Below, piece after piece: positions 1,280 through 22,072 of a stretch of 23,981 nucleotides of DNA (positions within the stretch are counted from its first letter, which is position 1; each line of letters opens with the position of its first letter). Below the pieces are notes generated by a model that was not told where the DNA came from, ran no database searches, and was given only the letters and a program-made list of their open reading frames with translations. The translations under genes were made by a program, and so were the position numbers. The DNA is from a virus: IMG/VR virus record IMGVR_UViG_3300006109_000040, positions 1 to 23,981 of that record, one strand, 5' to 3'.

Positions 1280-2724
1280 TGACAACGTATACCAACCCAT
1301 TTACGGGGCAGACAATCAATCCAACGTCTGTTAGCTATGAAGCTATCACTATTAGCTCAAATACCGTGCTGCAATGGCCTATCAATGGCAACAATAGCAC
1401 GCCGGCAAGCAGTATTATTGATGTTACTGCCACAATTGGCTCGGCAACTTTTAGAGGCTACATTTCTGGTGTAACATTAACAGTTACCGCTGTGTCATCT
1501 GGTACTATTCAGGTAGGCCAAACCATTACGGGCACAAATATAGCTTCAGGCACAATGATTACTGCCCTAGGCTCAGGCAGTGGTAGCACCGGTACGTACG
1601 TTATCAACATTTCTCAAACTGTGGCATCTTCAGGCTCACCTGAGGCCATTACAGCTGTAGCATTGCTTTTGGAGTTGCCCCCTGCAACACAAGTATCTAC
1701 AGGGCAATCAATTCTAGTTAGAAATGTAGGCACTTACGCTTTTACCGTTGCGGACAATGCAGGCAACACAATTGTGTCCGCAACAACTGGGCTTGCGTAC
1801 TTTATTTGGTTGACCGATAACACTACGGTTGCAGGCGCCTGGGCAGAAGTTCAATTTGGCGCAGGCACTTCGGCAGCCAACGCATCGCAATTAGCCGGAT
1901 ATGGCTTACAAGCTAGTGGCTCAACGCTTAACACTATTACGCCATTAGTTAGTTATTATTCAAGCGCTACGTTAAGCGCAACATCGCAATCGCAATTAGC
2001 TACTTGGCAAGGCGGCGTAGGTACACTAACATTGCCTGTGTCATCTGTTGTTGGCGCCAATTGGTTTGTTATCATCAAAAACAATGGCACAGGCATAGTT
2101 ACCGTGCAATGCCAAGGCTCTGATCAGATTGACGCTGCAAATGCGTCATTTCAATTGCAATTGCAAGAGTCTTTTATGCTGGTGTCCAATGGCACCGATG
2201 GTTATAGCTCTTGGGGCTATGGTCAAAGCGCTATATTCTCATTTACGCAAGAGCAGATCTCTGTAACAGGTCAAAGCTCCCCTATTATTCTTACGTCTAC
2301 GCAAGGGTCATACACTTTGCAGCAGTATTTAGGCACGCTTGGCCAAAATACTGTGGTTAGAGTTCCCCCTACCGTGCAGTTTTATGTCATTACAAATAGC
2401 ACATCAGGCACGTATACATTAACATTCTCTACCGGTATAAGTGGCGGTTCAACCACAACTATACCTACAGGCGCTACTGTCGCCATGGTGTGTGATGGCA
2501 CCAACGTTACGTCCGTCACCTCTGTATCAAACAGCATTAGCACACTAACTTTAAGTACAGGCTCCGCAACTAACCCATCACTAAACTTTTTAGGCAACCT
2601 AAATACTGGTTTGTATCTGCCTAACTCAAACCAAGTTGGCGTGACGATTAACGGTGCTGAAGCTGCATTTTTTAGTACAACTGGGCTAACAGTTCTTAAT
2701 GGTATTAGCGGGGGCACGTTTTGA
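1279..2724 (+). CDS. Beta-rich virion structural protein (fibre/decoration type)
   Basis: 481 residues, rich in Ser, Thr, Gly, Asn and Val with almost no Cys, typical of repetitive beta-strand virion proteins. Residues about 55-126 form a discrete module ([18 protein letters not shown], then [10 protein letters not shown], then [14 protein letters not shown]) of a widespread phage and bacterial surface-protein type. A related module lies in the downstream nozzle protein. The C-terminus ([19 protein letters not shown], then [13 protein letters not shown]) resembles the shaft or attachment end of phage fibre-like proteins. The start overlaps the adaptor stop and the stop TGA overlaps the next TTG start. 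Exact role (fibre, decoration or tail-side protein) is not resolved. Confidence 0.6.
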
Positions 2725-4967
2725 CGGCCAAGGTTACCGCTTTACAAGTTCCTGCTGGCATACAGCGGGATGGCACGCAATTTGCGTCTGTTTACTATGT
2801 AGATGGTCAGTGGGTTCGCTTTCAACGTGGTTTGCCAAGAAAGATTGGTGGCTATACCGGTGCCTTTTTAAACGCATCTGGCATTTCCCGTGGCGTGATT
2901 ATGAGTGCGCTTAATGGCCTTAATTACATCATTTCAGGCTATAGCGCAGGCATTCAACAGTGGGTTACAAATGATGTGACGGCAATTGGTACTGGCCCAG
3001 CTACATTTACATTGCCCACAGCGCCAAACTTTACTCCTAGTGCTAACAATCTATGGCAGTTTGACATCGGTTATGACTCGTCAGGCAATAACGCTAACCA
3101 GCTTATTGCACACCCTGGGCAAAACTTAAACTACATCTCAAGCACAATAAAAACACGTCCCTTGTATGGCTTGTTTACTAGCACTACGTTGGCCCCAGTT
3201 GGCGTATTTACGGCAACAGGTTCTATTACTAACGGTAGAACGTTTGTCACTTTTTCTAGTATCAACTCAGGCATTGGCCCCGGTGTAACAGTTACTGGCA
3301 CAGGCATCCCTACCAACACTACCGTGGTCTCGGCCAACTTGCAAGCCTTTGGCCCCATTGGCACTATTGACATTAGCACGCAAGGCTCTGGATACACTAA
3401 TGGCACATACACAGGTATATCCATTATTGGTGGAAAATCAGGTTCAGGCGCCACGGCTACCGTGGTTGTCAGTGGCGGCGCTGTGACTTCGGTAACCGTA
3501 ACTCTTGGCGGTAGCAATTACATCTCGCTTGACTCATTTACTTTAGGCTCTGGCATTGGTTCTGGCTCAGGCTTTTCTGGTTCTATTACCAGCTTGGCTT
3601 CGACTTCTTCCAATCTGTGGACAGCAGTTTTATCGCAAGCTGCCACAGCAACTGCCACAGAGACTCTGACTTTTGATAATAACATTGCAGTGTCCGGTGG
3701 CGTTGTGATGCTTTTCCCATACTTGTTTGTGTATGGCGATGATGGCTTAATTCAAAATTGCGCTGCAGGTGACTTTAATAACTGGACCAGCGCGGACTCA
3801 AACGCCAATAACGTATCTTCAACCAAAGTTGTTAAAGGTTTACCTTTGCGGGGCGGTACAACGTCGCCCTCAGGACTGTTCTGGACGTTAGACTCGGTTG
3901 TTCGTGTTACTTACGCGCCCCAGACCGTAGGCACTTCTACACTATATTGGCGGTATGACTTAATTACGCAGCAAAGCTCAATTTTGTCATCCAGCTGCGT
4001 CATTGAGTATGATGGCATCTATTATTGGATTGGTGTTGACAGGTTCTTGTATTACAACGGCGTAGTGCAAGAAATGACCAACAATATGAACATCAACTAC
4101 TTTTTTGACAACTTGAATTTTAGTCAACGTCAAAAAGTTTGGGCTAGCAAAGTTCCTCGCTATGGAGAGATCTGGTGGTTTTATCCGCGCGGTGACGCCA
4201 CAGAGTGCACAGACGCTATTATCTACAATGTGCGTGAGAAGACGTGGTATGACGCTGGACAAGCCCCGGGGGCTAACCGCGCAGCCGGTATTTTCACTGA
4301 GGTATTTCCTAAGCCTATTTGGGGCGGCACAACCGGTACGCCTATTGTTGAGTTTCAAGGCTCAGTTAGTGGCACTACGTTAACTGTTTCGGACATGGTG
4401 TATGGCACTATCTTTATAGGGCAAATCCTGCAAGGCTTGGGCGTTCCAGATCAAATGGTTATCACAGCGCAGGTAAGTGGAACTGGCGGCACAGGTACAT
4501 ACACTGTGTATAACCCAACGGGTGTTGCTGTAGGTTCTACAGTAATAACAGCAAATGGCTACACTATTTGGGAGCATGAATCAGGCACTAATCAAGTGTA
4601 TTTAACCAATGTTGACGCAATCTATTCTGCCATTGAGACGCCTACTTTAGGCAGTATGACAGGATTGGTAGGCACTACAGGTCAATTTGGCGATAATTAT
4701 TGGACAAGGCTTGAGCGGATTGAACCTGATTTTGTGCAAACAGGCGATATGGACGTGATTGTTACGGGTAAAGGCTACTCAGATGGCACAGATCAGCCAT
4801 CTGACCCTTACACGTTTAGCCCATCAACACTTAAAATTGATATGCGTGAGCAACGTCGTGAAATGCGACTACGTTTTGAGTCAAACACGTTTGATGGTGA
4901 CTATCAAATGGGTAAAATCCTCCTCAACATTGAGGCAGGTGATGTTCGCGGAACAGGTAACCCATGA
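2721..4967 (+). CDS. Tail nozzle / packaged-DNA stabilisation protein (P22 gp10-like)
   Basis: 748 residues from a TTG start that overlaps the previous stop (TTGA). The conserved N-terminus ([12 protein letters not shown], then [21 protein letters not shown]) begins right after it, and the next Met comes too late. The core ([73 protein letters not shown]) resembles beta-propeller hub proteins closing the portal channel in P22- and SU10-like phages. P22 gp10 has about 470 residues. Much of the excess is two inserted beta modules, at about 217-273 ([11 protein letters not shown] type) and 549-612 (GTTLTVS type). The C-terminus ends in [14 protein letters not shown] and a short beta sandwich-like tail. 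It overlaps the next gene by four bases. Confidence 0.75.
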
Positions 4968-5201: not shown

Positions 5202-5564
5202 ATGTTAACAGATGATGTCATAAAAGCTGTTGCCAAAAGAGAAGGTATCAAACCTGGAGCCTTAGAAGCTACCATTCAAAAATTGGTAGGGCAAGGCCGT
5301 GGTACCCTTATGCATAAAAATGACACCCTTATGCTTTTACACCCTATGGGCCCCACCACCGCGTATGTGCATTTTTTGTCCATTGATGGCATGCCGGCGC
5401 TTGTACACGCTATTGGTGACTACTTATCTGTCATTCGCCGACACGGCATCAAGCGGCTTTACACCAATGTGCAAAATCCGCAAATCATTGAGGCTTTAAA
5501 GCAAAATAAGGCCCCGGTTATGCCTTCCGACTCCAAACGTTATCATTTAATGATTAAGGTGTAA
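5202..5564 (+). CDS. Hypothetical protein, possibly GNAT-like fold
   Basis: 120 residues. The order of elements (DTLMLLHPMGPTTAYVHFLSI, a helix around LVHAIGDYLSVIRRHGIKRLYTNV, then NPQIIEALKQNKAPV and a final strand RYHLMIKV) resembles the C-terminal half of small acetyltransferase-like proteins found beside phage tail genes. However, no clear acetyl-CoA loop (Q/RxxGxG/A) is visible, so enzymatic activity is doubtful. It lies between a small tail-region protein and the first Cys-rich gene, with five bases before the next ATG. Unknown function is the safe call. Confidence 0.65.
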   Translation: MLTDDVIKAVAKREGIKPGALEATIQKLVGQGRGTLMHKNDTLMLLHPMGPTTAYVHFLSIDGMPALVHAIGDYLSVIRRHGIKRLYTNVQNPQIIEALKQNKAPVMPSDSKRYHLMIKV

Positions 5565-5568: not shown

Positions 5569-8088
5569 ATGGCTGGCGGATCATGCAATTATTGTTGCGT
5601 TCCTTGGGGTTGCTGGCCGCCAGTATGCCCAACAGGTGGTTGCTCAGGGAATTGCTGCTTTAGTGGCGGTTGCTGCTCTAGTGGTGGTTGTTGCTATAGT
5701 GGGGGTGGGTGCTGGTGTGGATGCCATTGGCCTTGCAATAGCGGAAGTGGACACTTTCAACCTCCTGCGCCTCCGCCGCCTCCGCCTGTTTGCACGTATC
5801 AGCCTCCTGCGCCATCTCCTGCGCCATCACCATCACCTGTTTGCAATAGCCCGCCTGATTGCATCCCCATTTGTATTCCTCCTATTTGCGAGCCTGTCTG
5901 TGGTCCAGTAGGTGGACCGGGTGGCCCCGGTGCATGCTGCACGCCTATTAAATCACCTGTTTGTACGGGTCCAGTTTGTACTGGTCCAGTTTGTACTGGT
6001 CCAGTTTGCAGCGGGCCTGTTTGTACTGGTCCAGTTTGTACTGGTCCAGTTTGCAGCGGGCCTGTTTGTACGGGTCCAGTTTGCAGCGGGCCTGTTTGTA
6101 CTGGTCCAGTTTGTACTGGTCCAGTTTGCAGCGGGCCTGTTTGTACTGGTCCAGTTTGCAGCGGGCCTGTTTGTACGGGGCCAGTTTGTACTGGTCCAGT
6201 TTGTACGGGTCCAGTTTGCAATAGCCCACCTGACTGTATTCCCATTTGCATTCCGCCTATTTGCGAGCCAGTTTGCGAGCCAGTTTGTGGGCCTGTTTGC
6301 GGTCCTATAGGCGGACCAAATGGCCCAGGTGCATGTTGTATACCTGTTGAGCCCCCAATCTGTTATGGGCCAGTTTGCTGTGAGCCAATATGTACTCCTC
6401 CAGTCTGCTGTGGGCCAGTATGTACTCCTCCAGTTTGCTGTGGGCCAATATGTACTCCCCCAGTTTGTGCTCCTCCAGTCTGCTGTGGGCCAGTATGCAC
6501 CCCTCCAGTTTGTTGTGAGCCTATTGCTTGCTGCATACCTATTTGTATTCCACCTATATGCGCGCCAGTATGCTGCGCCCCAACATGCGACTGCATTCCT
6601 ATTGTTTGCGTAACTTGCTGTGAACCAACTTGCTGTGAGCCTCCAGTTTGCTGTGAGCCTCCAGTTTGTTGTGAGCCACCCCCTTGCTGTATCCCTACTA
6701 TTTGCATAACTTGCACTAAACCAGTTTGTTGTGAGCCACCCCCTTGTTGTGAGCCACCCCCTTGCTGTATCCCTACTATTTGTATAACTTGCACTAAGCC
6801 AGTTTGTTGTGAGCCGCCCCCTTGCTGTATCCCTACTATTTGTATAACTTGCACTAAACCAGTTTGTTGTGAGCCACCCCCTTGTTGTGAGCCTCCAGAT
6901 TGCTGTGAGCCAGCATGCTGCTGCAAGTCTAAAGGCTGCAAGTCTAAAGACTGTAAACCTAAAGACTGTAAGCCCAAAGACTGTAAGCCTAAAAATTGCA
7001 AGCCTACATCGCCTAAAGGCAGCTGCAATAATAGTGGCGCTTTGCCTACAACGCATGGCAAGCCTATAACCGGCGCTTTAAAAGATCAAAACCTAACATC
7101 AAAAGCTGATTATAGTAAAGATCAACTTGAGCAACTTAAACAACTTTTTCCAATGAAAGCTGAGGGCGGCGCCATGAGTTTATGTGTTGAAGAAGCTAAA
7201 AAAGGGATTTTTGCAAATCCTAGTTATGGTATTCCCAATATAGAGATTGTGGGCGATCGACCTGTATATGGCGGCATCAAAGAGACGCAGCCTATACAGC
7301 CTGATGCAGTGCCTTATGCAAATGTACCTGGGTTGCCTAGCAATTTTTTGCCTAATTTACCTACTACACCCACGGAAAAAGCAGAATCTGCAACACCTGA
7401 GCCTATGCCTGGCGCTTTACCTACAACTACAAATAGTCAAACCTGCAATGATTATAGTGTGCACAACACTACGGCGCCTGAAGGGCACATTCCTACAGCG
7501 CCGCAGCATAAGCACTTGCAAACGCAAGGAAGTGCATATGAAATGCAACTTCAGCAATTGCGGCATTTGTATCCGCAAATTGGCCACTTGCATCCTTGTG
7601 TAATGTCTTCATTGGCGGGGATTGACAATCAAGGCGCCCTGCCTAAGGCCGCAACGGGCGGCAGCATATCTTCAATTTTGGGAAATACAGGAATGCCAGG
7701 CGCTACACGTTCTGCAAGTCCTAATGTTTGCTATGGCAACCCATTGTCGCCTAATGCAAAGCTGCACCCACAAAACTTGAATACAGGCGGCGTTCCCGGG
7801 CATCACCCCGAGTTCATTACCGGCGCCACCGGCCATTATGTAAAAGGCAAAGGCGATGGTCAAAGTGATGACATCCCGGCCATGTTGGCTGATGGCGAAT
7901 ACGTGTTTGACGCCGATACTGTGGCTGCATTGGGCAATGGCTCCAGCGACGCAGGGGCAAAATTGCTAGATCATTTTAGAGAAGCTTTAAGAGAGCATAA
8001 ACGAGCAGCGCCAAGTGATAAAATACCACCTGCAGCTTCGCCATTGCAATATATGAAAGAAGCCCTCAAACGGCATAAGGGGAAATAA
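5569..8088 (+). CDS. Hyper-cysteine, proline-rich repeat virion-region protein
   Basis: 839 residues with AAGG before the ATG. By hand count about 116 of the first 485 residues are Cys, an extreme value. Layout: Gly/Cys-rich head (1-60, many CC pairs); Pro-rich linker; a first copy of CNSPPDCIPICIPPICEPVC (92 on); 18 PVC units (130-217); a second copy of that segment (217 on); a long CC/EPP/GPVCC zone with three 20-residue units (about 375-440); CKSKD/CKPKD repeats (452-479). The last 350 residues are ordinary soluble protein with four Cys and end in HPEFITGATGHYVKGKGDG, DDIPAMLADGEYVFDADTV and LQYMKEALKRHK, a C-terminus I associate with phage structural proteins. No signal peptide. The tail probably ties it to the particle while the Cys region forms a cross-linked or metal-binding structure (inference). 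Confidence 0.85.
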   Translation: MAGGSCNYCCVPWGCWPPVCPTGGCSGNCCFSGGCCSSGGCCYSGGGCWCGCHWPCNSGSGHFQPPAPPPPPPVCTYQPPAPSPAPSPSPVCNSPPDCIPICIPPICEPVCGPVGGPGGPGACCTPIKSPVCTGPVCTGPVCTGPVCSGPVCTGPVCTGPVCSGPVCTGPVCSGPVCTGPVCTGPVCSGPVCTGPVCSGPVCTGPVCTGPVCTGPVCNSPPDCIPICIPPICEPVCEPVCGPVCGPIGGPNGPGACCIPVEPPICYGPVCCEPICTPPVCCGPVCTPPVCCGPICTPPVCAPPVCCGPVCTPPVCCEPIACCIPICIPPICAPVCCAPTCDCIPIVCVTCCEPTCCEPPVCCEPPVCCEPPPCCIPTICITCTKPVCCEPPPCCEPPPCCIPTICITCTKPVCCEPPPCCIPTICITCTKPVCCEPPPCCEPPDCCEPACCCKSKGCKSKDCKPKDCKPKDCKPKNCKPTSPKGSCNNSGALPTTHGKPITGALKDQNLTSKADYSKDQLEQLKQLFPMKAEGGAMSLCVEEAKKGIFANPSYGIPNIEIVGDRPVYGGIKETQPIQPDAVPYANVPGLPSNFLPNLPTTPTEKAESATPEPMPGALPTTTNSQTCNDYSVHNTTAPEGHIPTAPQHKHLQTQGSAYEMQLQQLRHLYPQIGHLHPCVMSSLAGIDNQGALPKAATGGSISSILGNTGMPGATRSASPNVCYGNPLSPNAKLHPQNLNTGGVPGHHPEFITGATGHYVKGKGDGQSDDIPAMLADGEYVFDADTVAALGNGSSDAGAKLLDHFREALREHKRAAPSDKIPPAASPLQYMKEALKRHKGK
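5842..5940 (+). repeat. Left flanking copy of the segment bracketing the PVC array
   Basis: Codes for residues 92-124, opening CNSPPDCIPICIPPICEPVC and closing in a GGPGGPGACC stretch. A second, slightly longer copy lies at 6217-6339, directly after the PVC array. The DNA copies are clearly related but diverged, mostly at third codon positions. Confidence 0.8.
5956..6219 (+). repeat. 15-base tandem array coding PVC(T/S)G pentapeptides
   Basis: Seventeen full 15-base units and a final partial one, in frame, encode PVCTG or PVCSG, with 18 Cys spaced exactly five residues apart. Unit variants (CCTGTTTGTACGGGT, CCAGTTTGTACTGGT, CCAGTTTGCAGCGGG) occur in mixed order. This suggests expansion by slippage or unequal recombination of blocks of units rather than of one unit. 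Units are contiguous with no spacers. Confidence 0.95.
6217..6339 (+). repeat. Right flanking copy of the segment bracketing the PVC array
   Basis: Codes for CNSPPDCIPICIPPICEPVC, then an extra EPVCGPVC-like insertion, then GGPNGPGACC. It is the partner of 5842-5940, so the array sits between two related segments in direct orientation. Confidence 0.8.
6691..6888 (+). repeat. 60-base tandem units coding IPTICITCTKPVCCEPPPCC
   Basis: Three copies start at 6691, 6769 and 6829. The first carries an extra 18-base EPPPCC segment, so spacings are 78 and 60 bases. The copies differ by only a few bases, indicating recent duplication. Each 20-residue unit has six Cys, mostly as CC pairs. Confidence 0.9.
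6922..7005 (+). repeat. 15-base tandem units coding CK(S/P)K(D/G/N)
   Basis: Residues 452-479 repeat Cys-Lys-x-Lys-x, with Cys every five residues, the same period as the PVC array but strongly basic. This gives the protein a positively charged, Cys-spaced segment between the CC/EPP zone and the ordinary C-terminal part. Confidence 0.9.
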
Positions 8089-8089: not shown

Positions 8090-9508
8090 ATGGCAGCACT
8101 CTGTTCTATAACGCCAGTTGGTGCTTGCGCAACGCCTACTGGCACAGTTGGTGCGTCGCCCCCTAGTGGCCAACTTGTAAGTATGCAAGTGTGTAACCTT
8201 GCTTGCTCAGTTGGCGCGCCGCCTCCCGTAACAGGCTTTCATGTGCTAACTCCTGGGCTAACTGGGGCTTTGCCTACATCATCTCCTACGCTTAATAATC
8301 CTATTGTTGGAGGTGCGTCTACGCTAAACACGCCAACTTCAACCCCTGCGCCTTGCCTTGGTGTTACAACCGGCTCGCATGGGGGTTGCAGTATTTTGCA
8401 AGGTAAAGCATTGCCCTGCATTACGACTAAGTCAAGTCAAGTAACTGCGGCGCCAAAGTTTTACACTGACTTTTTAAATAACATTGCTACTGCAGGGGCT
8501 TGTGTAGCTGCTAACGCCCACTATGTTGGGGCAACACCTCTGCAACAGGCCGCGTGGTGCAAAGTTGCTGCTTGCCAAGGCAATTACAAAGGCGCCCTTT
8601 GCGCTGCCAAGAATGTTACTACCGGCGTGCAAAATGCATGTCTTAATCAGCAGGCTCAAAAATACATGAGCCCTTATGTGCATTGCGTAGTAAATCAAAT
8701 TGGCGCCCTTGGGCAAGCCAATATCATGAATAACATTGGCCCTCAGGCCAACGCCGGCATTGTCGGCTCGGGGCAATTTGGCTCAACTCGAGGTGCAACG
8801 GCTTTGGGGCAAGTTCTTTCAAACGCTGCCCTAGGCTTAACGGCGCAACAATCCTGCGCTCTGCAAAAAGGCTACACACAAGCACTATGCACGGCCAAGT
8901 CGCAAGAAAACATGCAACTGGCAGCGGCGAACCAAGGCATTTGCGAGGCCAAGACCACTCAGGCTTTGAGTTTGAACTGCGCCAACGCCTTGGCGACCAT
9001 GGGCGCGCAGCAACAAACCATTGCGCAAAACGCCCAATGCTATCCAATGAAGCAACTGGTTACAGAGTCCAACTTGCTCAAAGGCTACAGCATTCCAGAA
9101 AGCACTTCTTCTTCCTACACTGGGCCTATTCCTGGTGCCTACTCCGCATCTCTGTTGCAACAACTTACTGGCGCCGGTGCATTGGCCAAGGGTCTTATGT
9201 GCGCTTACAAAACGTATAAGTGTATTGCTAAAGGCAGTGGCAGTGGTGGTAAAGGCAGCGGCGGTGGGGGTAGCGGCGGCGGAGGTAGTGGCGGTGGGGG
9301 CGGCTGTAAGGGTGGAAGCGGTGGCGGTGGCGGCTGCAAAGGGCCTGCTTGTGTTGGCACATCCGGCGGTGACCCATGTCAACCAGTTTGCTGCCCACCA
9401 TCTTGCTGCGAACCATCTTGCTGCTGCTCTGGTTGCTGCTCAAGCTGCTGCTCTGGTTGCTGCTCAAGCTGCTGCTCTGGTTGCTGCTCCGGTGGCTGCT
9501 GCGGTTAA
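8090..9508 (+). CDS. Second cysteine-rich virion-region protein
   Basis: 472 residues, start one base after the previous stop, with AAGGGG before the ATG. The middle (KFYTDFLNNIATAGACV, then VGATPLQQAAWCKVAACQGNY, then GALGQANIMNN, then GQFGSTRGATALGQVLSNA) looks like a helical phage structural protein of a kind common in podovirus-type virion operons. It is peppered with single Cys, including MCAYKTYKC. The C-terminus is a Gly-Ser linker (about residues 383-420) followed by QPVCCPPSCCEPSCCC and three CCSGCCSS-type repeats ending in GGCCG. The CCxPxCCEP motif echoes the neighbouring 839-residue protein, so the two may join through these tails (inference). No signal peptide or membrane segment is seen. 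Confidence 0.8.
   Translation: MAALCSITPVGACATPTGTVGASPPSGQLVSMQVCNLACSVGAPPPVTGFHVLTPGLTGALPTSSPTLNNPIVGGASTLNTPTSTPAPCLGVTTGSHGGCSILQGKALPCITTKSSQVTAAPKFYTDFLNNIATAGACVAANAHYVGATPLQQAAWCKVAACQGNYKGALCAAKNVTTGVQNACLNQQAQKYMSPYVHCVVNQIGALGQANIMNNIGPQANAGIVGSGQFGSTRGATALGQVLSNAALGLTAQQSCALQKGYTQALCTAKSQENMQLAAANQGICEAKTTQALSLNCANALATMGAQQQTIAQNAQCYPMKQLVTESNLLKGYSIPESTSSSYTGPIPGAYSASLLQQLTGAGALAKGLMCAYKTYKCIAKGSGSGGKGSGGGGSGGGGSGGGGGCKGGSGGGGGCKGPACVGTSGGDPCQPVCCPPSCCEPSCCCSGCCSSCCSGCCSSCCSGCCSGGCCG
9421..9492 (+). repeat. 24-base tandem repeat coding Cys-pair tail
   Basis: Three adjacent 24-base units at 9421, 9445 and 9469. The first two are identical and the third differs only in its last bases (CCGG for CAAG). 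They encode alternating CCSG and CCSS at the extreme C-terminus of the second Cys-rich protein. Confidence 0.95.
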
Positions 9509-12773: not shown

Positions 12774-12952
12774 CATGGTGCTTGCTGCGCGTCACTGATG
12801 GCCGTTTGGTACTGCGCCACCAATGCTAGCTCGACCTTAACAGCCTGTAAAGCTGTTGTAAGGTCATTTATTGAGTGATTTTGCCTTAATAGGCTCATCA
12901 CAAAAGTACGAAGTAGGGCCTCTGAGGGACTGCTTAAACTTGTGTCAGCCAT
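12773..12952 (-). CDS. Small 59-residue protein at the end of the early block
   Basis: Reads MADTSLSSPSEALLRTF, then VMSLLRQNHSINDLTTALQA, and ends QTAISDAQQAP. The ATG lies 19 bases inside the end of the thymidylate-synthase-family gene. The stop TGA overlaps the T-run of the opposing terminator. Composition is that of a small helical soluble protein. No strong Shine-Dalgarno is seen, so translation would rely on coupling. Without it the 160 bases after the synthase gene would be empty, unusual in this dense block. Function unknown. Confidence 0.55.
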   Translation of the reverse strand: MADTSLSSPSEALLRTFVMSLLRQNHSINDLTTALQAVKVELALVAQYQTAISDAQQAP

Positions 12953-13719
12953 TTTGAAAACTCAAAGTAAGGGTTGATGGACTTTTCAATGAGATTGTGC
13001 GCTTCGTAGCGAAAGATTCTTGGCGGTGGGTCTGTCAAGGGTACATGTTGACTTTGGCTAAGAATGGAGTTGAACATCTCAACTCGAGATTCATAGACGT
13101 GGAAAGACCCCACCGAAACAGTTAAGGTTCCAACACTGGCGTTAAGCAACGCGGCTATAATTTCCTGCAGGAAACTGAATGTTGGTATGTCATTAGCCAT
13201 GCCCCATAGAATGTCCTGAGACCTCATAATGGCACGAGCATTAAGGTAACCACCACGCAGTCTAAATTCAATCGCCAGTGTGCACGGAACATCCTTGGCG
13301 TCAAGGTCCATATGATCAGCGTCAGTGCCATACATTGGTATGACAGCCCGACGGCTCATAGGGTCATCGCTTAATAGTTTGACAATATGTTTGACCCCGT
13401 GACGGCCAAACCAATAGCTACCATAATTGCTATTAAGCTTTCCATTTGCGACAATCTTCCCCCACTGCTTCGCATGGTCAGCAATAGACAAATCGTTAGG
13501 GTCAGCATGGATATACCAAGCCATTTCCCGCTTAAGATAGGAAAGATTGAAGTTGCGGCCGGCGAAAGAATTAAAACGGACATAAGGAGCAAGAGAATAA
13601 GTAAAATTCTCGATCTCCAAAGTACGCTCACCTCTTGGGGCTGTCCATTTGCCGTCTTTTGCAAGGGCTCGGTAAAGCCAGATAAGGTCTTTTTCATAAT
13701 TGATTTGCGTAATTTCCAT
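12934..13719 (-). CDS. Thymidylate-synthase-family enzyme, predicted dCMP hydroxymethylase
   Basis: 261 residues from ATG at 13719; an in-frame ATG at 13749 is possible, but neither has a clear Shine-Dalgarno. Family features (numbered from 13719) are LNSNYG near 95-100, DPMSRR near 119-124 (phosphate-binding Arg pair), catalytic Cys146 in VPCT, MRSQD near 165-169, and SFHVYE near 205-210. The order and spacing resemble T4 gp42 (INSNYG, NPDSRR, MRSNDVVFG, SLHVY). At the site where thymidylate synthases have Asn to read uracil (E. coli N177) this protein has Asp177 in GMANDIP, as in dCMP hydroxymethylases. The expected reaction is dCMP plus methylene-tetrahydrofolate to 5-hydroxymethyl-dCMP; a dCMP methyltransferase is the main alternative. 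It follows the kinase fusion with a 26-base overlap. Confidence 0.8.
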   Translation of the reverse strand: MEITQINYEKDLIWLYRALAKDGKWTAPRGERTLEIENFTYSLAPYVRFNSFAGRNFNLSYLKREMAWYIHADPNDLSIADHAKQWGKIVANGKLNSNYGSYWFGRHGVKHIVKLLSDDPMSRRAVIPMYGTDADHMDLDAKDVPCTLAIEFRLRGGYLNARAIMRSQDILWGMANDIPTFSFLQEIIAALLNASVGTLTVSVGSFHVYESRVEMFNSILSQSQHVPLTDPPPRIFRYEAHNLIEKSINPYFEFSKWLTQV

Positions 13720-14638
13720 GGTCAGTATGTGTGATTGAGTAAGGTTCATCAGGGTAGTGCTGCATGTGGTGCAACGGGGGAGGGAGCTTAGTAACTTTGA
13801 TGCCGTTATTAAGCGCCCATGTATATGCGTTATTGCCTAACGCAAAGATTCTGGAGGGTCGCAGCGCCTTTAAAAAGGCCGGGTCCAATGGAACCCCTTG
13901 GTATGTTTGAGTGTTGATCCAGTAAAGTTTGGATTCACTTACGCCTTCATTGTCCAAGGTCGCTGCCAGCATACGGCTGGGGCCGTCATTATCCAAGAAG
14001 TTGATGAAAGGCACAACCACGGCAGAGTCTTTGACATTGGCCCTAGGCCCGCGGTCACACAGCATAAGCATATTGCCTTCATTAAAGCAACCACCACCGC
14101 TGGCTTTATTTTCAATTGTTGCCCGTGATAGATGGGCCAGCAATTCATCAACACTGTCTTCTTGATAGTTGTAGTGAATGACTGGCAAGGCCGTGTGCAG
14201 GTCCAAAAGCTCATAGTCACCGTACACATCTTGTAATTGTGTAGGAGTGTCTAAGTACTCATCATTGATTCTGCTTTTAAAAGTTTTTAGGCAGGTTTCA
14301 AAGTCAGGCAGGCAGTTGATGACAACGGCGCCGCGGGAAAGGGCCACACGCTCAAGCATACGCTTTCTTGGTGTGTCAATACGATTCAAGCCATCACGGT
14401 AAGCATTGCCGTAAATAGGCTCAGACAGCCAGGACCTGTCCATGATAACTATGTCATCGTGCGTCAATGCAGGGGTCATGCCCCTAAAATAAATTTTGCA
14501 CAGATGCTCGGATGTCAAATCTCTATATGGGCCATGCTTAACAATGTGCACCAGCTTGTTGCCTTGCAACTTTTGTCTAAGGGTCTCGGCAAGTGTGGTC
14601 TTGCCAGCCCCATCAGGACCTTCCAGGATGATTATCAT
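13694..14638 (-). CDS. Thymidylate-kinase-like dNMP kinase fused to a uracil-DNA-glycosylase-like domain
   Basis: 314 residues from ATG at 14638 (a TTG two codons earlier is less likely). Residues 1-170 are a dTMP-kinase-type P-loop domain: GPDGAGKTT at 7-15 and MDRSWLSEPIYG at 66-77 (DR motif). Residues about 188-300 look like the UDG superfamily: LCDRGPR at 192-199 where family 4/5 enzymes have a GExPG loop, VPF at 209-211, a strand YWINTQ at 239-244, ALGNNA at 266-271 (usual LGxxA), and HHMQHYP at 290-296 near the expected HPS-type motif. Catalytic residues of the UDG motifs are not clearly kept. It lies between the glycosyltransferase and synthase genes with overlaps on both sides. The kinase probably phosphorylates the modified dNMP; the second domain's role is unknown. 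Confidence 0.75.
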   Translation of the reverse strand: MIIILEGPDGAGKTTLAETLRQKLQGNKLVHIVKHGPYRDLTSEHLCKIYFRGMTPALTHDDIVIMDRSWLSEPIYGNAYRDGLNRIDTPRKRMLERVALSRGAVVINCLPDFETCLKTFKSRINDEYLDTPTQLQDVYGDYELLDLHTALPVIHYNYQEDSVDELLAHLSRATIENKASGGGCFNEGNMLMLCDRGPRANVKDSAVVVPFINFLDNDGPSRMLAATLDNEGVSESKLYWINTQTYQGVPLDPAFLKALRPSRIFALGNNAYTWALNNGIKVTKLPPPLHHMQHYPDEPYSITHTDHGNYANQL

Positions 14639-15524
14639 TTGCAAATCTCTCTAACTTTTCTAATGTCATATGTAATGACTCGACTTTTAAGTCCATGCTT
14701 TGCGCTATGGCAATCATTTCCAATTCATAGCGGTCTAGGCTTTCCAAGAAGTCTAGTGTATAGCTATAAGACTGAGCAATCATGCCTAATTCAAGTGGGT
14801 TGCCACCGAGGACACATCCGGCAGCTGCAGCGTGCAAATACCGAACTCGCCACCATCCACACCCTGCATGAGCGTAGGTTGGACATAAAACTCCATAATA
14901 AGACCCATATTGCCAAACAACATCACTTTCCAGTATTCGTGCTTGTCCGAGAGATTTACCTCCAATTGAATGTATAGGCCACTTAAGGCTTTGAGCGCTG
15001 GCCCATTCATGTGCTTCCCTTGAAAGTGATGCGTTATACCAAGCTTGCTTGCGTTGTTGCCAAGATTGCTTATACACAGGCGGCATTTCATACAAGCAAG
15101 ATGGGTCCCATTGCAAAATGTTTGCAACAGGTAAATTCATTTTAGAAACATTGCCCCATGAAAAGAGCGGCGCAATCCAGGTGCGGTCTGTAAGCGCATC
15201 CAGATCGATCTTATCTTTCCATGTGGGCAATATCTTTTGAAACGCCCAGTCATCAAGACAAATATACGCGTCAGGTCTTTGCTCCAACACGTATATGGCA
15301 TTGTCCGGTGCAATGGCATTTCCATCCAGCGGATAAACATACACAAACACGGCGTCATACATGCTAAGATCTTCGCCAAGCTTTACATAGCGATGATCCA
15401 CATTGTAGCCAAGACGACCATAACCCTTGGCCATAAGCTCGGGGATAGACACAAACTTGGTTGAGCTAGCTCTATCAGGTTTATTGATATGCGTCTCGGT
15501 AACGCCGGTTATGAGTATGTTCAT
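14613..15524 (-). CDS. GT-B-like glycosyltransferase, possibly DNA-modifying
   Basis: 303 residues. The start ATG overlaps the previous stop (ATGA), so translation is coupled. The N-terminus MNILITGVTET, then FVSIPELMAKGYGRLGYNVDH, then YDAVFVYVYPLDG looks like the first Rossmann half of a GT-B enzyme. The segment GCGWWRVRYLHAAAAGCVLGG (222-241) matches the donor-binding helix-loop of nucleotide-sugar transferases (Arg-x-x-x, then Ala-rich, then GC/S), followed by a strand and ELGMIAQSYSYTLDFLESLD. Beside the dNMP kinase and the synthase-family enzyme it may glycosylate a hydroxymethylated base, as T4 alpha- and beta-glucosyltransferases do. It could instead act on another substrate. Its 3' end overlaps the kinase gene. 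Confidence 0.65.
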   Translation of the reverse strand: MNILITGVTETHINKPDRASSTKFVSIPELMAKGYGRLGYNVDHRYVKLGEDLSMYDAVFVYVYPLDGNAIAPDNAIYVLEQRPDAYICLDDWAFQKILPTWKDKIDLDALTDRTWIAPLFSWGNVSKMNLPVANILQWDPSCLYEMPPVYKQSWQQRKQAWYNASLSREAHEWASAQSLKWPIHSIGGKSLGQARILESDVVWQYGSYYGVLCPTYAHAGCGWWRVRYLHAAAAGCVLGGNPLELGMIAQSYSYTLDFLESLDRYELEMIAIAQSMDLKVESLHMTLEKLERFANDNHPGRS

Positions 15525-15823
15525 TCTTCGCTTTCGTCGCTTTCGCTTTCGTTGTCCTCATCGCCACTCAGTTCGATGTAGCCATTTTGCACATCATACT
15601 TAATGTCGCCTGATCGTCCGCCGGCCTCAACGTACTCGCCAACTGTCATGCCGGTTTGATACAACTCAAAACGTTCATAGGCCAAGCTGTCTTGACGCTT
15701 AGGGTTGGACTGTGCCAACACGGTAATGATGGCAGATTTCTTGGTGTGCTTACGCGGAGCAGTAGATAGTTCAATCACTTTAGGTGCTTCTATAATTAAG
15801 GGTTTACGGGTAGGTTTGTTCAT
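15521..15823 (-). CDS. Small protein with basic N-terminus and acidic tail
   Basis: 100 residues. The N-terminal half is basic (RKPLIIEAP, then APRKHTKKSAIITVLAQSNPK). The middle, RFELYQTGMTVGEYVEAGG, looks like a short helix-turn-helix-like fold. The C-terminus is a strongly acidic run (SGDEDNESESDESEE). Acidic tails are common on phage ssDNA-binding and DNA-mimic proteins, but no OB-fold signature is evident. The leader GTTTGAAAGGAAATC before the ATG carries the TTGAAAGG motif seen before three other early genes, and overlaps the helicase stop. The stop overlaps the glycosyltransferase ATG. Function unknown. Confidence 0.7.
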   Translation of the reverse strand: MNKPTRKPLIIEAPKVIELSTAPRKHTKKSAIITVLAQSNPKRQDSLAYERFELYQTGMTVGEYVEAGGRSGDIKYDVQNGYIELSGDEDNESESDESEE

Positions 15824-15832
15824 GATTTCCTT

Positions 15833-17218
15833 TCAAACGTCAACAGCTGTGATTGTATCACGTTTAATGTAGTCACGCACAGCATTCAACAAATTTTGTT
15901 GCGTTTTGTCTTTGCGGCGGACAGCTTTTATTATGGCCTCATCAATGGTGTCCTTTGCAATGATGTGGTGGACCATAATTCGGTTTTGCTGGCCTTGACG
16001 CCAAAGCCTGCGAATAAACTGTTCATAGATTTCTAAACTCCAGGTAAGCGAATACCATATAACAGCATGGCCCGCGCCCTGGAGATTGAGACCGTGACCC
16101 GCTGACATTGGGTGCGCCAGAAGGACCGGTATTTCACCGGCGTTCCAAGCCGTAATAATAGCATCAAGCTTATTGCCAACGACGCCAGAACCAATAACAG
16201 GCGCAGCTGGAAAAGCCGCCTGAAGCCTAGCGAGGTCATGGGCAAAATGGTATCCGATGATGCAAGGATTGCCAGATAGCTCCTCCACAAGATCTTGTAC
16301 CGCTTCAGTCTTAACATCATGAATGAAAGTGAATGCACGCTCATCTCCATCTAAATAAGAGCCACCATTGGCTATTTGCTGACATTTCATAACGGCAACG
16401 GCGGCGTTGACCGCAGTAACCGACCCTTGCTCAAACTCTATGGTCAAAGCTTTCTCGAAAGCATTATAAGTGTCACGCGCCTTGACCGGAAGCTCGACCA
16501 TAATATCGTTGTAGGCAAGTTCTGGTAAGTCAAGATGATCCAAAGCTGCCATCCGAAGCACCTTACCATCAAGCTTTTCTTGAATTCTTTTCTCTCCGTC
16601 TGATTGCAGTTTCCACTCATAGCCGTTGTATCCTGAAGGGTAGAAGTAAGTGGTCCTGAAATGGGATATGTAGGGCCCAAACGTGGCCCCCTGGTCAATA
16701 ATATATTGTGGACCAAATATATCCAATAGGCTATTAGGTGCGGGGGACCCTGTGAGGCCCCAGCGCCTGTCAAACTTATTGAGCAGAGGCTTTAGAGTTT
16801 TGAAGCGCTGTGTTTGTGTGTTTTTAAGATACGAGATCTCATCCACAACCAGCACATCAAAAGGCCAAGGCTTGCCGTTTAGTTTGCTGGACAGCCAGCC
16901 GATGCCTTCAAAGTTGATGACATAGATGTCATGCAGCTTCTTAAGTGTTTGCTCTTTTTTGCTGCCATGTAAGACACCGACCGAGTAATGGCTAAATTGC
17001 CCCCACTTTTGCGCCTCGGTAGGCCAAACCCCATACACGGGCCTCAGCGGAGCAATGACCAACATTCTTTTGGCCAATCTTTTTTGTTGCAGTGTTGTAA
17101 AGGCTGACAAAACAATGGCAGTTTTGCCCAAGCCGGGGTCAAGCCAAAGACTGGCCGAGCCGCGTTCGATTAAGAACTTACAAGCCGCTATCTGATACGC
17201 ATGCGGTTCCCAGTACAC
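15833..17218 (-). CDS. SNF2-type superfamily 2 DNA helicase/translocase
   Basis: 461 residues from GTG at 17218. Motif I is DPGLGKT (27-33), motif II DEIS near 127-130, motif III LTGSPAPN. In the second half GHGLNLQGAGHAVIW and YEQFIRRLWRQGQ are motifs V and VI. The conserved arginines of RRLWRQGQ are the arginine-finger region. Such helicases accompany family A polymerases and VRR-NUC nucleases in many phages and probably remodel replication forks or recombination intermediates. A TTG two codons upstream is in frame, but AAGGA lies seven bases before the GTG and only one before the TTG, so GTG is preferred. Its 5' end overlaps the VRR-NUC gene by about 40 bases. Confidence 0.88.
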   Translation of the reverse strand: MYWEPHAYQIAACKFLIERGSASLWLDPGLGKTAIVLSAFTTLQQKRLAKRMLVIAPLRPVYGVWPTEAQKWGQFSHYSVGVLHGSKKEQTLKKLHDIYVINFEGIGWLSSKLNGKPWPFDVLVVDEISYLKNTQTQRFKTLKPLLNKFDRRWGLTGSPAPNSLLDIFGPQYIIDQGATFGPYISHFRTTYFYPSGYNGYEWKLQSDGEKRIQEKLDGKVLRMAALDHLDLPELAYNDIMVELPVKARDTYNAFEKALTIEFEQGSVTAVNAAVAVMKCQQIANGGSYLDGDERAFTFIHDVKTEAVQDLVEELSGNPCIIGYHFAHDLARLQAAFPAAPVIGSGVVGNKLDAIITAWNAGEIPVLLAHPMSAGHGLNLQGAGHAVIWYSLTWSLEIYEQFIRRLWRQGQQNRIMVHHIIAKDTIDEAIIKAVRRKDKTQQNLLNAVRDYIKRDTITAVDV

Positions 17219-17483
17219 GATCAATTCCTTCTTTAGAGTCTAGCACATACACTTCTTGCTGCCAGCTTTTAAGCTGCTTGATAACTTTATCTTGTAAAGG
17301 CGAGAGCTTACCGCCAGGCCTTTTGAGCTCAACCCATAAAATGTTGCCTAATGGCAGCACAACGAGTCTATCAGGCCAACCGCGTTGATACCTTACATTT
17401 AGCTTTAAAGTCATAAGGCCTAGCTGCTTGCATTGCTTGGCAAAATGAGCCTCAAGGTCACGTTCAAGCAACTTAGTTACCAT
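17178..17483 (-). CDS. VRR-NUC domain nuclease
   Basis: 101 residues, a usual size for stand-alone phage VRR-NUC proteins. The PD-(D/E)xK core is clear: Asp38 in RGWPDRLV, then Glu52-x-Lys54 in WVELKRPGG, then SPLQ (61-64), the family's conserved Gln. An N-terminal helix (LLERDLEAHFAKQCKQLG) is typical. These nucleases resemble Holliday junction resolvases and partner SNF2-type helicases, which is the next gene here. ATG at 17483 overlaps the preceding stop (CAATGGTAA). An in-frame TTG two codons earlier is less likely. Confidence 0.88.
   Translation of the reverse strand: MVTKLLERDLEAHFAKQCKQLGLMTLKLNVRYQRGWPDRLVVLPLGNILWVELKRPGGKLSPLQDKVIKQLKSWQQEVYVLDSKEGIDRVLGTACVSDSGL
17225..17231 (-). 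promoter_or_regulatory. Ribosome binding site deciding the helicase start
   Basis: The minus strand reads AAGAAGGAATTGATCGTG. The AAGGA core is correctly spaced (7 bases) from GTG at 17218 but abuts the TTG at 17224, favouring GTG. The site lies inside the VRR-NUC coding region, within codons for KEGID. Confidence 0.6.
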
Positions 17484-18115
17484 TGGCAAGGCCCACCATT
17501 GTTTTTACGAAAATGGCAATACCTGCAATTGCCACTAGGCTTAGGGGCAAAGATGTCATCATTTTCAATCTTGCTAACACGGCCATTGACCCACGCCTTA
17601 AGCTCATCAAACTGCGAGCGTGGGATAGGCTTATAAGGCTGACGCTTTTTAAGATCGACAAACAAGATTTCAGGCCTAACCTCGTTGATGAATGGATAGG
17701 CTGCAAAAATAAAGCTAGCGTACAATTTAAGCTGGTCTAGGTAGTCACGTTCTTTGCCAGTTTTCCAGTCACCAACATAGGCGGTGTTGCCTTCAATGTA
17801 AAAGATGTCAAAGATACCGCGGACCCAAACATTCTTGTCAGAGAAAGGTACATGCTTCCAGTCTTTGTCAATGCCAATTTCAAGCTCAGACATAGCGTTC
17901 TTTGCCACCAACTCATTGACAAAGGGCTCCCAGTACTCAGTCTCGGCCGTGTAAAGCTGAAGCATGCCTTTAAGCAAGTTTTCAAACTCTGTGTGGATCA
18001 TTTTGCCACGATCAGCCGCGGGGCCTGAAGGCTCATGCTTATGCTCAATACGAGTCAGCCGGTATTTGAAGGGGCATTCTTCGTATGACTTGATGCTTGA
18101 ATGTGAGTAGCTCAT
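17477..18115 (-). CDS. Cas4/RecB-like PD-(D/E)xK exonuclease with a Cys4 pattern
   Basis: 212 residues. Catalytic elements are RGKMIH with His41, Asp103 in RGIFD, Asp116-x-Lys118 in GDWKTG, and Gln128 in DQLKLYA. Cys14 (YEECPFKYRL) pairs with C-terminal Cys197, Cys200 and Cys210. This is the one-plus-three arrangement that holds an iron-sulphur cluster in Cas4 and AddB. The protein probably processes DNA ends for phage recombination or replication, acting with the neighbouring polymerase, VRR-NUC and helicase. Its ATG overlaps the polymerase stop (ATGA) and its stop overlaps the VRR-NUC start, so the four genes form a coupled unit. Confidence 0.85.
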   Translation of the reverse strand: MSYSHSSIKSYEECPFKYRLTRIEHKHEPSGPAADRGKMIHTEFENLLKGMLQLYTAETEYWEPFVNELVAKNAMSELEIGIDKDWKHVPFSDKNVWVRGIFDIFYIEGNTAYVGDWKTGKERDYLDQLKLYASFIFAAYPFINEVRPEILFVDLKKRQPYKPIPRSQFDELKAWVNGRVSKIENDDIFAPKPSGNCRYCHFRKNNGGPCQW

Positions 18116-19932
18116 TTAGTTTCCTGATAGGTGTCGCCGACTTTATAATCACTAATCATAGGCACATCCATTTGCAAGGCGCTGCACATCGCGGACATAA
18201 GACAATTGGCCTCACGTTCAATGTGCTCGATCGGCGCGCTGATAACCAACTCATCATGAACACTAAGTAGTAGCCTACTGCCTTGTCGAGTCTTTTGATA
18301 CAACAACATGGCTGCCTTGGCCTGATCAGCGGCAGAGCCTTGAATTAAAAGATTGACGCCCTTATAGTCAAACTCACGGAGGCGGCCTTGTATAACTTTT
18401 GGGGGCTCCATCTTAACTAAACGGTTGCCTAAAGTTTTGATGGGCTGCTTTAGTTTATAGCGGGTTCGCATAGTAGATTGCATGTCCTTGAGTCCAGGCG
18501 CCACAGCGGTAGTGTAAGCATCCATCAGTGTCTTGGCCAGTTCATAGTCAATCTCAAGCATGTCACTAATTTTGCTAGGCCCAGCCCCATACAAAATAGC
18601 AAATGACACGCCTTTACTATAGGTTCTACTTACTTCACGGCCGCTGGCCTCAGTCATCATCTTGGCTGCGTAAGTATGTAGGTCCGCTCTGGCGTCCTGT
18701 TGATATTGCCGCATTAAGTTGCCAGCTTCAAAATGGGCAAAGATACGCAGCTCCTGAGCGTTAAAGTCACACGCCACCAGCTTATGGCCTTCATCAGGCA
18801 AAATAAAGCTACGAATCAAAGGCAAAGGGGCAACCTTTAAGTCGCTTGGCAAGTTGACTTTGGGGTATCTAACAGGTGCGTTTTGGAAGTTCGGAGTACT
18901 GCTGAGACGACCCGTCCGCGTGCCGCCTCGTTCACCACGAACACTGTTCCAGTTGGTGTAGATACGGCCCGTATCTCGGCCGGATTGAAGCCACGGCTCA
19001 ATAAACGTTGATAGGCAGGTTGACAGATTGGCTCGGTAGCGCAAAACGTCTCTAAGGTATTCATTGGTTAACATCTCCTCAAATGCTTCTTTGGTTGCTT
19101 GTAATTGACCTTTGTCTGTTGTAGGCCAGGCTTTATTTTTGTCCCAGTGCTCCGATTGATAAATACATTCGACCAACTGTTGGTCACTGTCTACATTCAA
19201 ATCAGGAGAACCAAGTAATGTCTTCACCCACTCGGTGCATAATGCAATATCTACTTCTGCTTGGGCCTTTGCTTGCTCAAGTCCCGGCACATCAACCCTT
19301 ACACCTAGACGTGAGTTTTCAAGTAACATTGGCATCAAAGCCATCTCACGAACATAAGGCTCTTGCTGAGCCGGCAAAACCTTCTCTGCCAAGTAATCAT
19401 AAAGCAAAGCGGTAAGGCGGACGTCAGCCTTGGCGTAGCGGCCAACTAATTCTACGGGGCCTCGACAGATGTATGCGCCCCATGTGGATTTCTTTTTCTT
19501 GGCCTCAGGCACATTGGCGATAATCCACTCTTTTAACTCATCACGCTCATCAGGGTTAGCCAAGCCATAAGTTACGACCAAGTCTTTCAATGACAATGAC
19601 TGGACATGCGGGTCGTTGAGGAAGGCCAAGATCAGCGTATCATGGTACAAATTAGCATTGCTAGGAATTGGCCGATCGAAATAAGTTTCAATGATGTCCA
19701 AGTCAAACAAAGCATTATGAAAGCAAATGCTACGCCCACTAGCCCAGACTTCTTTAAGCATGTCATAGACATATGTAAAAGTAGAATTGTTGTTATGAAG
19801 ATGGTCAAAGGCAAAGTAGCCATCTTCAAACTGGCCTTCAGGATCAAAGACGGCCAAGCCCACGGGCTTTGGTGGATACTTAGGCCGAGCCTCAATGCCT
19901 TCGGTTTCAAAGTCTAAAAAAACTGGTTTCAT
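18112..19932 (-). CDS. Family A DNA polymerase with 3'-5' exonuclease
   Basis: 606 residues from ATG at 19932, which places exo I (FLDFETEG, Asp7 and Glu9) at the very N-terminus as in T7-like enzymes. An upstream in-frame start at 20007 would overlap the previous gene and a hairpin. Exo II is FHNALFDLDII and exo III YAKADV, so proofreading looks intact. Polymerase motif A is CDFNAQELR (about 385), motif B RTYSKGVSFAILYG (about 435-448) with Phe at the O-helix position that is Tyr in T7, and motif C VHDEL (about 556-560). The Phe predicts ordinary discrimination against dideoxynucleotides. It is the main replicative polymerase. Its Shine-Dalgarno-like AAGGGG lies inside an upstream hairpin (see 19937-19956). 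Confidence 0.95.
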   Translation of the reverse strand: MKPVFLDFETEGIEARPKYPPKPVGLAVFDPEGQFEDGYFAFDHLHNNNSTFTYVYDMLKEVWASGRSICFHNALFDLDIIETYFDRPIPSNANLYHDTLILAFLNDPHVQSLSLKDLVVTYGLANPDERDELKEWIIANVPEAKKKKSTWGAYICRGPVELVGRYAKADVRLTALLYDYLAEKVLPAQQEPYVREMALMPMLLENSRLGVRVDVPGLEQAKAQAEVDIALCTEWVKTLLGSPDLNVDSDQQLVECIYQSEHWDKNKAWPTTDKGQLQATKEAFEEMLTNEYLRDVLRYRANLSTCLSTFIEPWLQSGRDTGRIYTNWNSVRGERGGTRTGRLSSTPNFQNAPVRYPKVNLPSDLKVAPLPLIRSFILPDEGHKLVACDFNAQELRIFAHFEAGNLMRQYQQDARADLHTYAAKMMTEASGREVSRTYSKGVSFAILYGAGPSKISDMLEIDYELAKTLMDAYTTAVAPGLKDMQSTMRTRYKLKQPIKTLGNRLVKMEPPKVIQGRLREFDYKGVNLLIQGSAADQAKAAMLLYQKTRQGSRLLLSVHDELVISAPIEHIEREANCLMSAMCSALQMDVPMISDYKVGDTYQETK

Positions 19933-19936
19933 AATG

Positions 19937-19956
19937 AAAAGGGGCCGAAGCCCCTT
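19937..19956 (-). terminator. UUCG hairpin between the Cys4 protein gene and polymerase
   Basis: The minus strand reads AAGGGGC TTCG GCCCCTT then TTCATTATG. The 7-bp stem has a very stable UUCG loop and runs into a short T-stretch, four bases after the upstream stop and just before the polymerase ATG. It resembles an intrinsic terminator. The only Shine-Dalgarno-like bases (AAGGGG) lie in its 5' arm, so it could also limit polymerase translation. Confidence 0.6.
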
Positions 19957-19960
19957 GTCC

Positions 19961-20719
19961 TCAATAACGAGTTGTAGGAGCCGGTGCGGGCTCCTCGGAT
20001 TCTTCATTCACAGCGCCAGCACTATTGATAGCCTTTTCAAGTTCATCTTTACTACGGGCAACCAATGCTTGAATGGCAGCCTGATCGTCAACCGTTTTGA
20101 CCGACGTAAAGGTAACCTTGAATTGTGTCTTGGCGTCAGGCACAACGGCGATCTCAGTTATCACTCCAAGGGGAGGACGGCGCATAACACTGGCAATAGT
20201 TTGCACATAATTAGCGTAGTTCTTTAGGCTGGTAACGGGTGGGCGCAGTGCGGCGACCTCTGCCCCTGCAATGGCGTCAGGCGATGCGATTGAGTCAGCA
20301 GGTATCATCAACAACCGACGTGTTTCACGGCAAGCTTTACCTTTACCACCATTACTGGCACTGCCCCATTCATTTTTAGGGCAGCCTTCGCAGGTAGAGT
20401 GCTGAGCTTGCGGTGAGGCTGGGCTTGGGCTCATGCCAACAGCCGACTGAGCAATGGCAAAGCAATCAGGCCCAACAATCTTTGTGGGGTCATAACGGCT
20501 GGAGTAGTAAAGCCTCTCAACTGGGCCGGCCAAAATAACCACTTGCAGCTTGTTGCCTGCAACCGGATCACCGCGGTATGTAAGCGTGCCTGACTTGGTA
20601 GACAGGAACGTAGTGGTAAGGCTTGATTGCTCAGCCTTGACAGACTCTAAAGCCATTGCTGCCATTTGATCTTCAAACAAAGCAATTTGATTAGAGGGGT
20701 TTGTAGGAACTTTAGCCAT
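19961..20719 (-). CDS. Conserved phage protein in the ssDNA-binding slot, Cys4 motif
   Basis: 252 residues from ATG at 20719, preceded by TTTTGAAAGGTTATCCT. Cys86 (GPDCFAIA), Cys110 and Cys113 (STCEGCPKNEWGSA) and Cys130 (GKGKACRETRRL) form a likely zinc site. The pattern CxxCP-x-N-xxGS, then GKGKAC-x-x-TRRL, is one I associate with an unnamed, widespread phage family encoded beside polymerases. After it comes a region with alpha/beta character (TSLKNYANYVQTIASVM, PPLGVITEIAVVPD) and an acidic, Pro-rich tail (EESEEPAPAPTTRY). A ssDNA-binding or replication-accessory role is inferred from position and tail only. The gene is directly upstream of polymerase, separated by a hairpin. Confidence 0.7.
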   Translation of the reverse strand: MAKVPTNPSNQIALFEDQMAAMALESVKAEQSSLTTTFLSTKSGTLTYRGDPVAGNKLQVVILAGPVERLYYSSRYDPTKIVGPDCFAIAQSAVGMSPSPASPQAQHSTCEGCPKNEWGSASNGGKGKACRETRRLLMIPADSIASPDAIAGAEVAALRPPVTSLKNYANYVQTIASVMRRPPLGVITEIAVVPDAKTQFKVTFTSVKTVDDQAAIQALVARSKDELEKAINSAGAVNEESEEPAPAPTTRY

Positions 20720-20744
20720 AGGATAACCTTTCAAAATTAACGAG

Positions 20745-21110: not shown

Positions 21111-21111
21111 G

Positions 21112-22007: not shown

Positions 22008-22035
22008 ACAATACCTTTCAAAAATCAGTGAGTCA

Positions 22036-22041: not shown

Positions 22042-22045
22042 CTAC

Positions 22046-22066: not shown

Positions 22067-22072
22067 AGACTT

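Follow-up and report, generated by a model that had tools for sequence, protein, structure and literature searches.

Two adjoining cysteine-rich proteins, P1 and P2, in a probable ejection-protein cassette of a phage record

We analysed a phage DNA record of 23,981 bases from a metagenome (IMG/VR record IMGVR_UViG_3300006109_000040, positions 1 to 23,981), called the window below, which is the entire record and is probably incomplete. Two adjoining genes in it, P1 and P2, encode proteins with 14% and 9% cysteine, respectively. They open a four-gene cassette, P1-P4 (5569-12721; + strand, as are all features below unless stated otherwise), that looks like an internal or ejection-protein cassette, and the same proteins are practically free of cysteine in most relatives. 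The cysteine content of P2 is all or none across these relatives, that of P1 is coupled to it, and the cysteine-rich state arose repeatedly, with polar residues replaced at convergent sites.

Two cysteine-rich proteins side by side

P1 (5569..8088) has 839 residues and 120 cysteines, and consists of a cysteine-rich N-terminal region of 485 residues fused to a conserved C-terminal domain. An earlier note on this DNA had estimated about 116 cysteines in the N-terminal region, and our count is 115 (24%), together with 118 prolines. The fused phage domain was said to be nearly free of cysteine, and indeed only 5 were found in the last 354 residues; the C-terminal part of P1 in most relatives has exactly zero. 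The distinct short-repeat zones are also as claimed. A Gly/Cys head (5569..5748, residues 1-60) is followed by a PVC[T/S]G array (5956..6210, residues 130-214), which has 17 units of 15 nucleotides in the record as assembled and varies chiefly at third codon positions, then by CC/EPP(P) and CCIPTICITC units (6358..6918, about residues 264-450) and by CK[S/P]K units (6925..6999, residues 453-477).

The earlier note had named an untranslated N-terminal region as an outcome fatal to its claim, and this is not the case. The frame opens at an ATG located 4 nucleotides past the stop of the upstream gene, with a Shine-Dalgarno-like AAGG (5556..5559) 9 nucleotides ahead of it in the sequence. Every spacing between repeat copies is divisible by 3 (15, 18, 30, 45, 60, 78, 120, 249, 285, 375, 420 and 795). 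When the repeat copies were defined at the DNA level and not by the protein pattern, the differences among them fell on codon positions 1, 2 and 3 in the numbers 7/18/90. Therefore, the frame is translated and its residues, the cysteines included, are under purifying selection. Cysteine is encoded by TGC and TGT in equal measure (58:57). The cysteine region of P1 is neither a chance product nor low-complexity DNA noise.

The earlier note proposed that the C-terminal part of P1 be compared with phage proteins, and that relatives be inspected for what they carry in place of the cysteine region. The first comparison led to a motif common to tape-measure proteins, and the second to an N-terminal region that varies greatly in both length and sequence. 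The motif, KGKGDGQSDDIPAMLADGEYVFDADTVAALGNGSSDAG... (7801..8088, residues 745-839), shares 44-91% identity with the aligned relatives. It matches phrog_6090 at 5.1e-08, and annotated tape measures were also matched by tblastn. In some relatives the motif (DGEYV.. ALG.G) is tandemly doubled (L090:4628-5941, L002:7081-9000 and L123:3614-5890).

The second protein, P2 (8090..9508), adjoins P1 and was not mentioned in the earlier note. It has 472 residues, of which 43 are cysteine. From the alignment and an AlphaFold2 model, it has a conserved helical core (8447..9094, residues 120-335), predicted as long helices with a pLDDT of about 70-80, and a CC-rich tail, CCEPSCCCSGCCSSCC... (9377..9505, residues 430-472), predicted to be disordered. 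A sequence profile search of the PDB with P2 gave nothing significant, and a Foldseek search of the model against BFVD retrieved mostly uncharacterised phage proteins. When viral contigs were searched for the cysteine repeats of P1 or the cysteine tail of P2 in other phages, none was confirmed. One cysteine-rich P2 relative (L002:9004-10242, MW202545.1) carries the GenBank label 'coronavirus S2 glycoprotein', which is probably a misannotation caused by an automatic match to the cysteine-rich tail.

Distribution and repeated origin of the cysteine-rich state

The cysteine census of P2 covered 124 distinct relatives, the window included, from viral contigs, Caulobacter and other phages, and contigs of metagenome-assembled genomes. 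Caulobacter phage RW is a cysteine-free member of the group that is available in culture. The distribution is bimodal: P2 has no cysteine in 104 loci, 10-43 in 19, and 3 in a single locus. That sole 3-cysteine P2 (L177:7670-8335) is apparently frameshifted, and all three cysteines lie in its last 30 or so residues, a stretch that does not resemble the relatives. For the cysteine-free relatives, the counts are 3 cysteines in 42105 residues of P2, 0 in 49641 of P3, 0 in 30447 of P4 and 12 in 79525 of P1, so that P2, P3 and P4 combined have 3 cysteines per about 122,000 residues. As a comparison level, two neighbouring tail or head-completion families contain 0.46-0.69% cysteine. In the cysteine-rich phages, P3 has 0 cysteines in 9208 residues and P4 has 1 in 7274.

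Known ejection proteins follow the same trend. There is no cysteine in the 1309 residues of P22 gp7, gp20 and gp16, in the 2065 of T7 gp15 and gp16 (the smaller gp14 has 1) or in the 951 of BPP-1 bbp11 and bbp12, and only 1 in the 1326 of the Sf6 proteins. The absence of cysteine is a regularity found in the present analysis and not an accepted defining feature; P3, P4 and most relatives conform to it, and P1 and P2 of the window do not. The statement in the earlier note that phage virion proteins are rarely cysteine-rich was therefore the wrong rule, and the exception becomes sharper since the particular protein class is essentially cysteine-free. The literature that was searched yielded no paper dealing with cysteine in ejection proteins, which does not prove that none exists.

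The two proteins are coupled. Among the complete P1 sequences, 8 or more cysteines were found in eight phages with a cysteine-rich P2 and in none with a cysteine-free P2, while few or no P1 cysteines were found in nine phages with a cysteine-rich P2 and in 87 with a cysteine-free one. The earlier description of a single odd virion protein is right about the virion cassette, but P1 has to be seen together with P2, as one of two coupled proteins of an ejection-like cassette. No flanking gene was found to track the cysteine-rich state across all three cysteine-rich clades.

These clades come from a P2 tree built with all cysteine columns removed. The tree requires three changes of state, a single change was sufficient in 0 of 200 bootstrap trees, and forcing the cysteine-rich P2 rows together was rejected (p-AU 0.009). 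Three gains are the most parsimonious history; a history of two gains, or of one gain followed by losses, is also compatible, and a single clade is rejected. The switch to the cysteine-rich state happened at least twice and probably three times. All three clades include members whose P1 gained cysteine. The tree of the neighbour gene corresponding to 2721..4967 needs four changes, and this gene has been exchanged between lineages. As a local example, L194 is cysteine-rich, yet its tree neighbour L195 is cysteine-free.

The cysteine-rich P2 cores arose through substitutions at single positions and not through repeats. Among the replaced residues, Asp is enriched 5.8-fold, Asn 2.5-fold and Gln 1.7-fold, while cysteine is almost never found at the hydrophobic I/V/F/Y positions. 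In every predicted helix the cysteines lie opposite the hydrophobic face, although their clustering per helix is only weakly significant. At three sites, 127, 157 and 297, cysteine occurs in each of the clades (permutation p = 5e-5). For example, site 297 (Cys297, 8978..8980) is cysteine in 19 of 19 cysteine-rich proteins and Asp in 96 of 99 cysteine-free ones, and site 157 (Cys157, 8558..8560) is mostly N, Q or D in the cysteine-free relatives. Site 127 is still Asp in the window itself. A recoding of cysteine codons was considered for the D/N-to-C changes and rejected, because P3 and P4 in the same genomes are nearly without such codons and the other genes are normal.

The fixed polar sites bear on two other explanations. 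According to the first, slippage merely swelled a tolerated Cys/Pro tract in one gene. The P1 N-terminal region, being made of tandem repeats and highly variable among relatives, is what such a process would produce, but the variation within its repeats is biased to third positions. For P2 the explanation is already largely refuted by the single substitutions, the multiple origins, the shared sites and the exact zero of the cysteine-free relatives. As a whole, we regard it as highly improbable.

The second takes P1 and P2 to be binders of a soft metal (Zn, Cu or Fe), or to hold clusters between subunits, for stability or for delivery of the metal to the host. The fact that three clades have cysteine in place of D, N or Q at fixed polar positions could be understood in this way, as could the dense CC motifs of P1 (28 CC pairs). 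Against it, the 485 cysteine-rich residues contain just 2 His, 5 CxxC and 4 CxC motifs, no Pfam or PHROGs metal-binding family was matched, and the P2 core sites are widely separated in the sequence. P1 shows neither a metal-family match nor the pattern dominated by CxC or CxxC that would be expected of a metallothionein-like protein. The binding of metal suggested in the earlier note has thus gained no positive support, and we consider it quite unlikely.

An ejection-type cassette and a possible disulfide lock

The cassette P1-P4 is, in our judgement, probably an ejection cassette, and its products would then be ejected into the host. As expected of an operon of internal virion proteins, it comes after head-completion and tail genes and has a peptidoglycan-hydrolase member. 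P3 (9526..11625) is an M23 peptidase protein of 699 residues with 0 cysteines, and P4 (11630..12721) has 363 residues and likewise 0 cysteines. A transglycosylase-type domain is present in the P4 equivalents of L002, L003 and L039, and those of L002 and L003 also match phrog_342, 'internal virion protein with endolysin domain'. The family phrog_4287, 'DNA ejection protein', was matched by 3 of 17 P2 relatives, with a best value of 1.6e-9.

Among the closest known systems are the podoviral ejection proteins (P22 gp7/gp20/gp16, T7 gp14/gp15/gp16, Sf6 and BPP-1 bbp11/12), which are similar in cassette position, in the peptidoglycan-hydrolase member, in the helical P2 with some relatives matching an ejection family, and in relatives that are cysteine-free or nearly so. 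They differ from the window in the cysteine content of P1 and P2, and the profiles of P22 gp7 and gp20 gave no significant match. The ejection proteins of P22, T7 and epsilon15 exit the head via the portal and build a trans-periplasmic conduit (PMC8402733; PMC8954989), and their passage is believed to take place in a partly unfolded state (PMC8402733). The similarity to the tape measures with the motif GxGDGxSDxIPAxLxDGEYV (phrog_6090 and others) is confined to the P1 C-terminus; P1 lies in a short-tail-type cassette, and the tape-measure assignment is limited to the motif. Tape measures leave the particle along with the DNA.

P1 and P2 may instead form an external or tail-tip structure, such as an adhesive or a coat, without being ejected. 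The Pro/Cys repeats resemble cross-linked structural proteins, and there is a weak match to Extensin_1 (2.9e-06, 27.6 bits compared with a cut-off of 105). High-sulfur keratin-associated proteins and other cornified or sperm-capsule proteins have CC-P pentapeptide-like repeats with disulfide cross-links; these proteins are of animal origin, and the likeness is in the repeats, with no homology claimed. The cassette order, the tape-measure-type motif, the DNA-ejection matches and the near-zero cysteine of the relatives all speak for proteins that are internal and ejected, and we judge an external structure to be very unlikely. The coat, adhesive or sensor of the earlier note is likewise made less likely by the coupled pair in an ejection-like cassette, which favours a function in DNA delivery or in the events that follow it.

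We propose, tentatively and with the chance put at somewhat below even, that P1 and P2 are ejection proteins turned thiol-rich, and that disulfides cross-link them after ejection and so lock a channel or an anchor. On this view the phage would be short-tailed, and P1 and P2 would be internal proteins that are synthesised and enclosed in the particle while still in the reducing cytoplasm, to be ejected via the tail into the envelope of the next host. The usual ban on cysteine would be explained by the passage of ejected proteins, often in a partly unfolded state, out of a reducing compartment and into an oxidising one: stray thiols on unfolded or refolding chains would presumably be mis-linked in the oxidising periplasm. 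In the lineage of the window, and independently in one or two related ones, this ban would be inverted, with many exposed cysteines in P2 and often in P1, placed on the polar helix face of P2, in flexible tails and in the flexible P1 N-terminus. Oxidation after ejection, by a DsbA-type enzyme or O2, could then form P2-P2 and P2-P1 disulfides, and these cross-links would yield a covalently locked channel or anchor in the periplasm, by which DNA delivery might be stabilised. The stronger formulation is that a taboo on cysteine, imposed on ejected proteins as they move out of the cytoplasm and into the periplasm, was inverted here and in at least one other lineage into a redox-triggered channel, with P2, with or without P1, packaged reduced and welded by disulfides into a trans-envelope conduit only in the periplasm of the next host. 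This we hold with more reserve, as a possibility that falls well short of even. The disulfide network after lysis suggested in the earlier note survives in part: disulfides formed after leaving the reducing compartment are still the leading idea, and their role is shifted to DNA delivery.

Several observations count against the proposed lock or its ejection setting. P1 has 0-1 cysteines in several phages with a cysteine-rich P2, and therefore linking between P1 and P2 is not a requirement; even numbers of cysteine are not favoured. The window's own P2 matches phrog_4287 weakly (E 0.005), a profile comparison of P2 with P22 gp7 and gp20, made with two-sequence profiles, gave no match, and a Foldseek search of the P2 model against the PDB returned generic coiled coils only, none with E <= 0.001. 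Also, cross-links that formed before ejection would be likely to keep the proteins from passing the portal.

The last point is shared by an alternative in which the cysteines become cross-linked once lysis has freed the virion, inside it or on its surface, and a reducing trigger at infection opens the lock. Its model, and the nearest precedent for the cysteine-rich proteins described here, is the Agrobacterium phage Milano, which has a disulfide-locked tail with mapped bonds and structural proteins of about 2.1% cysteine, and whose extensive virion disulfide network includes bonds that need reduction before contraction (PMC10811340). The statement in the earlier note that no such phage system is described does not hold, since Milano had already been reported (PMC10811340). 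Both cases involve cysteine-enriched phage virion proteins and a redox lock, established there and proposed here, and the many exposed thiols and flexible cysteine tails of P1 and P2 would readily oxidise outside cells. The proteins are unrelated, however: the Milano cysteines are in the sheath, tube, baseplate and receptor-binding proteins, whereas here internal proteins with 9-14% cysteine are concerned and the outer-tail-type neighbours are ordinary, with no enrichment of the Milano kind in a tail sheath, tube or baseplate. Just two of the four internal proteins are affected, and a linked internal mass should fail at the portal channel unless it is reduced again. We therefore consider a lock of the free virion unlikely.

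The proposed lock after ejection matters for the following reasons. The way in which podoviral ejection proteins build a channel across the envelope is hard to study, since such complexes are short-lived and difficult to capture. The natural series of cysteine-free and cysteine-heavy P2 proteins, with three shared sites, provides a paired comparison in which the channel would trap itself and its contacts could be read from the disulfides. If the regularity is general, the near-absence of cysteine would be a simple sequence signature for ejected proteins in uncultured phages.

Other genes of the record

The genes preceding P1 match virion-structural and tail families. The upstream neighbour (2721..4967) has an ordinary 3 cysteines in 748 residues, and its L002 equivalent is annotated as 'phage stabilization protein'. 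The tail-fibre families phrog_5342 and phrog_38233, together with phrog_21413, match stretches of 2721-4967 and 1279-2724, both tail-type. No long-tail gene was recognised among the genes scanned, in a 24-kb record that is probably incomplete, and short-tail-type genes are present; no sheath gene was called in the window, and a search for phage tRNA genes found none.

The replication side lies on the - strand (12934-23020) and encodes thymidylate synthase, a thymidylate-kinase-like protein, a SNF2-type helicase, a family A DNA polymerase, VRR-NUC and PD-(D/E)XK nucleases, and DUF932. The contigs of the relatives L193, L194, L195 and L196 were binned as betaproteobacteria or Burkholderiales, which gives a weak hint of the host.
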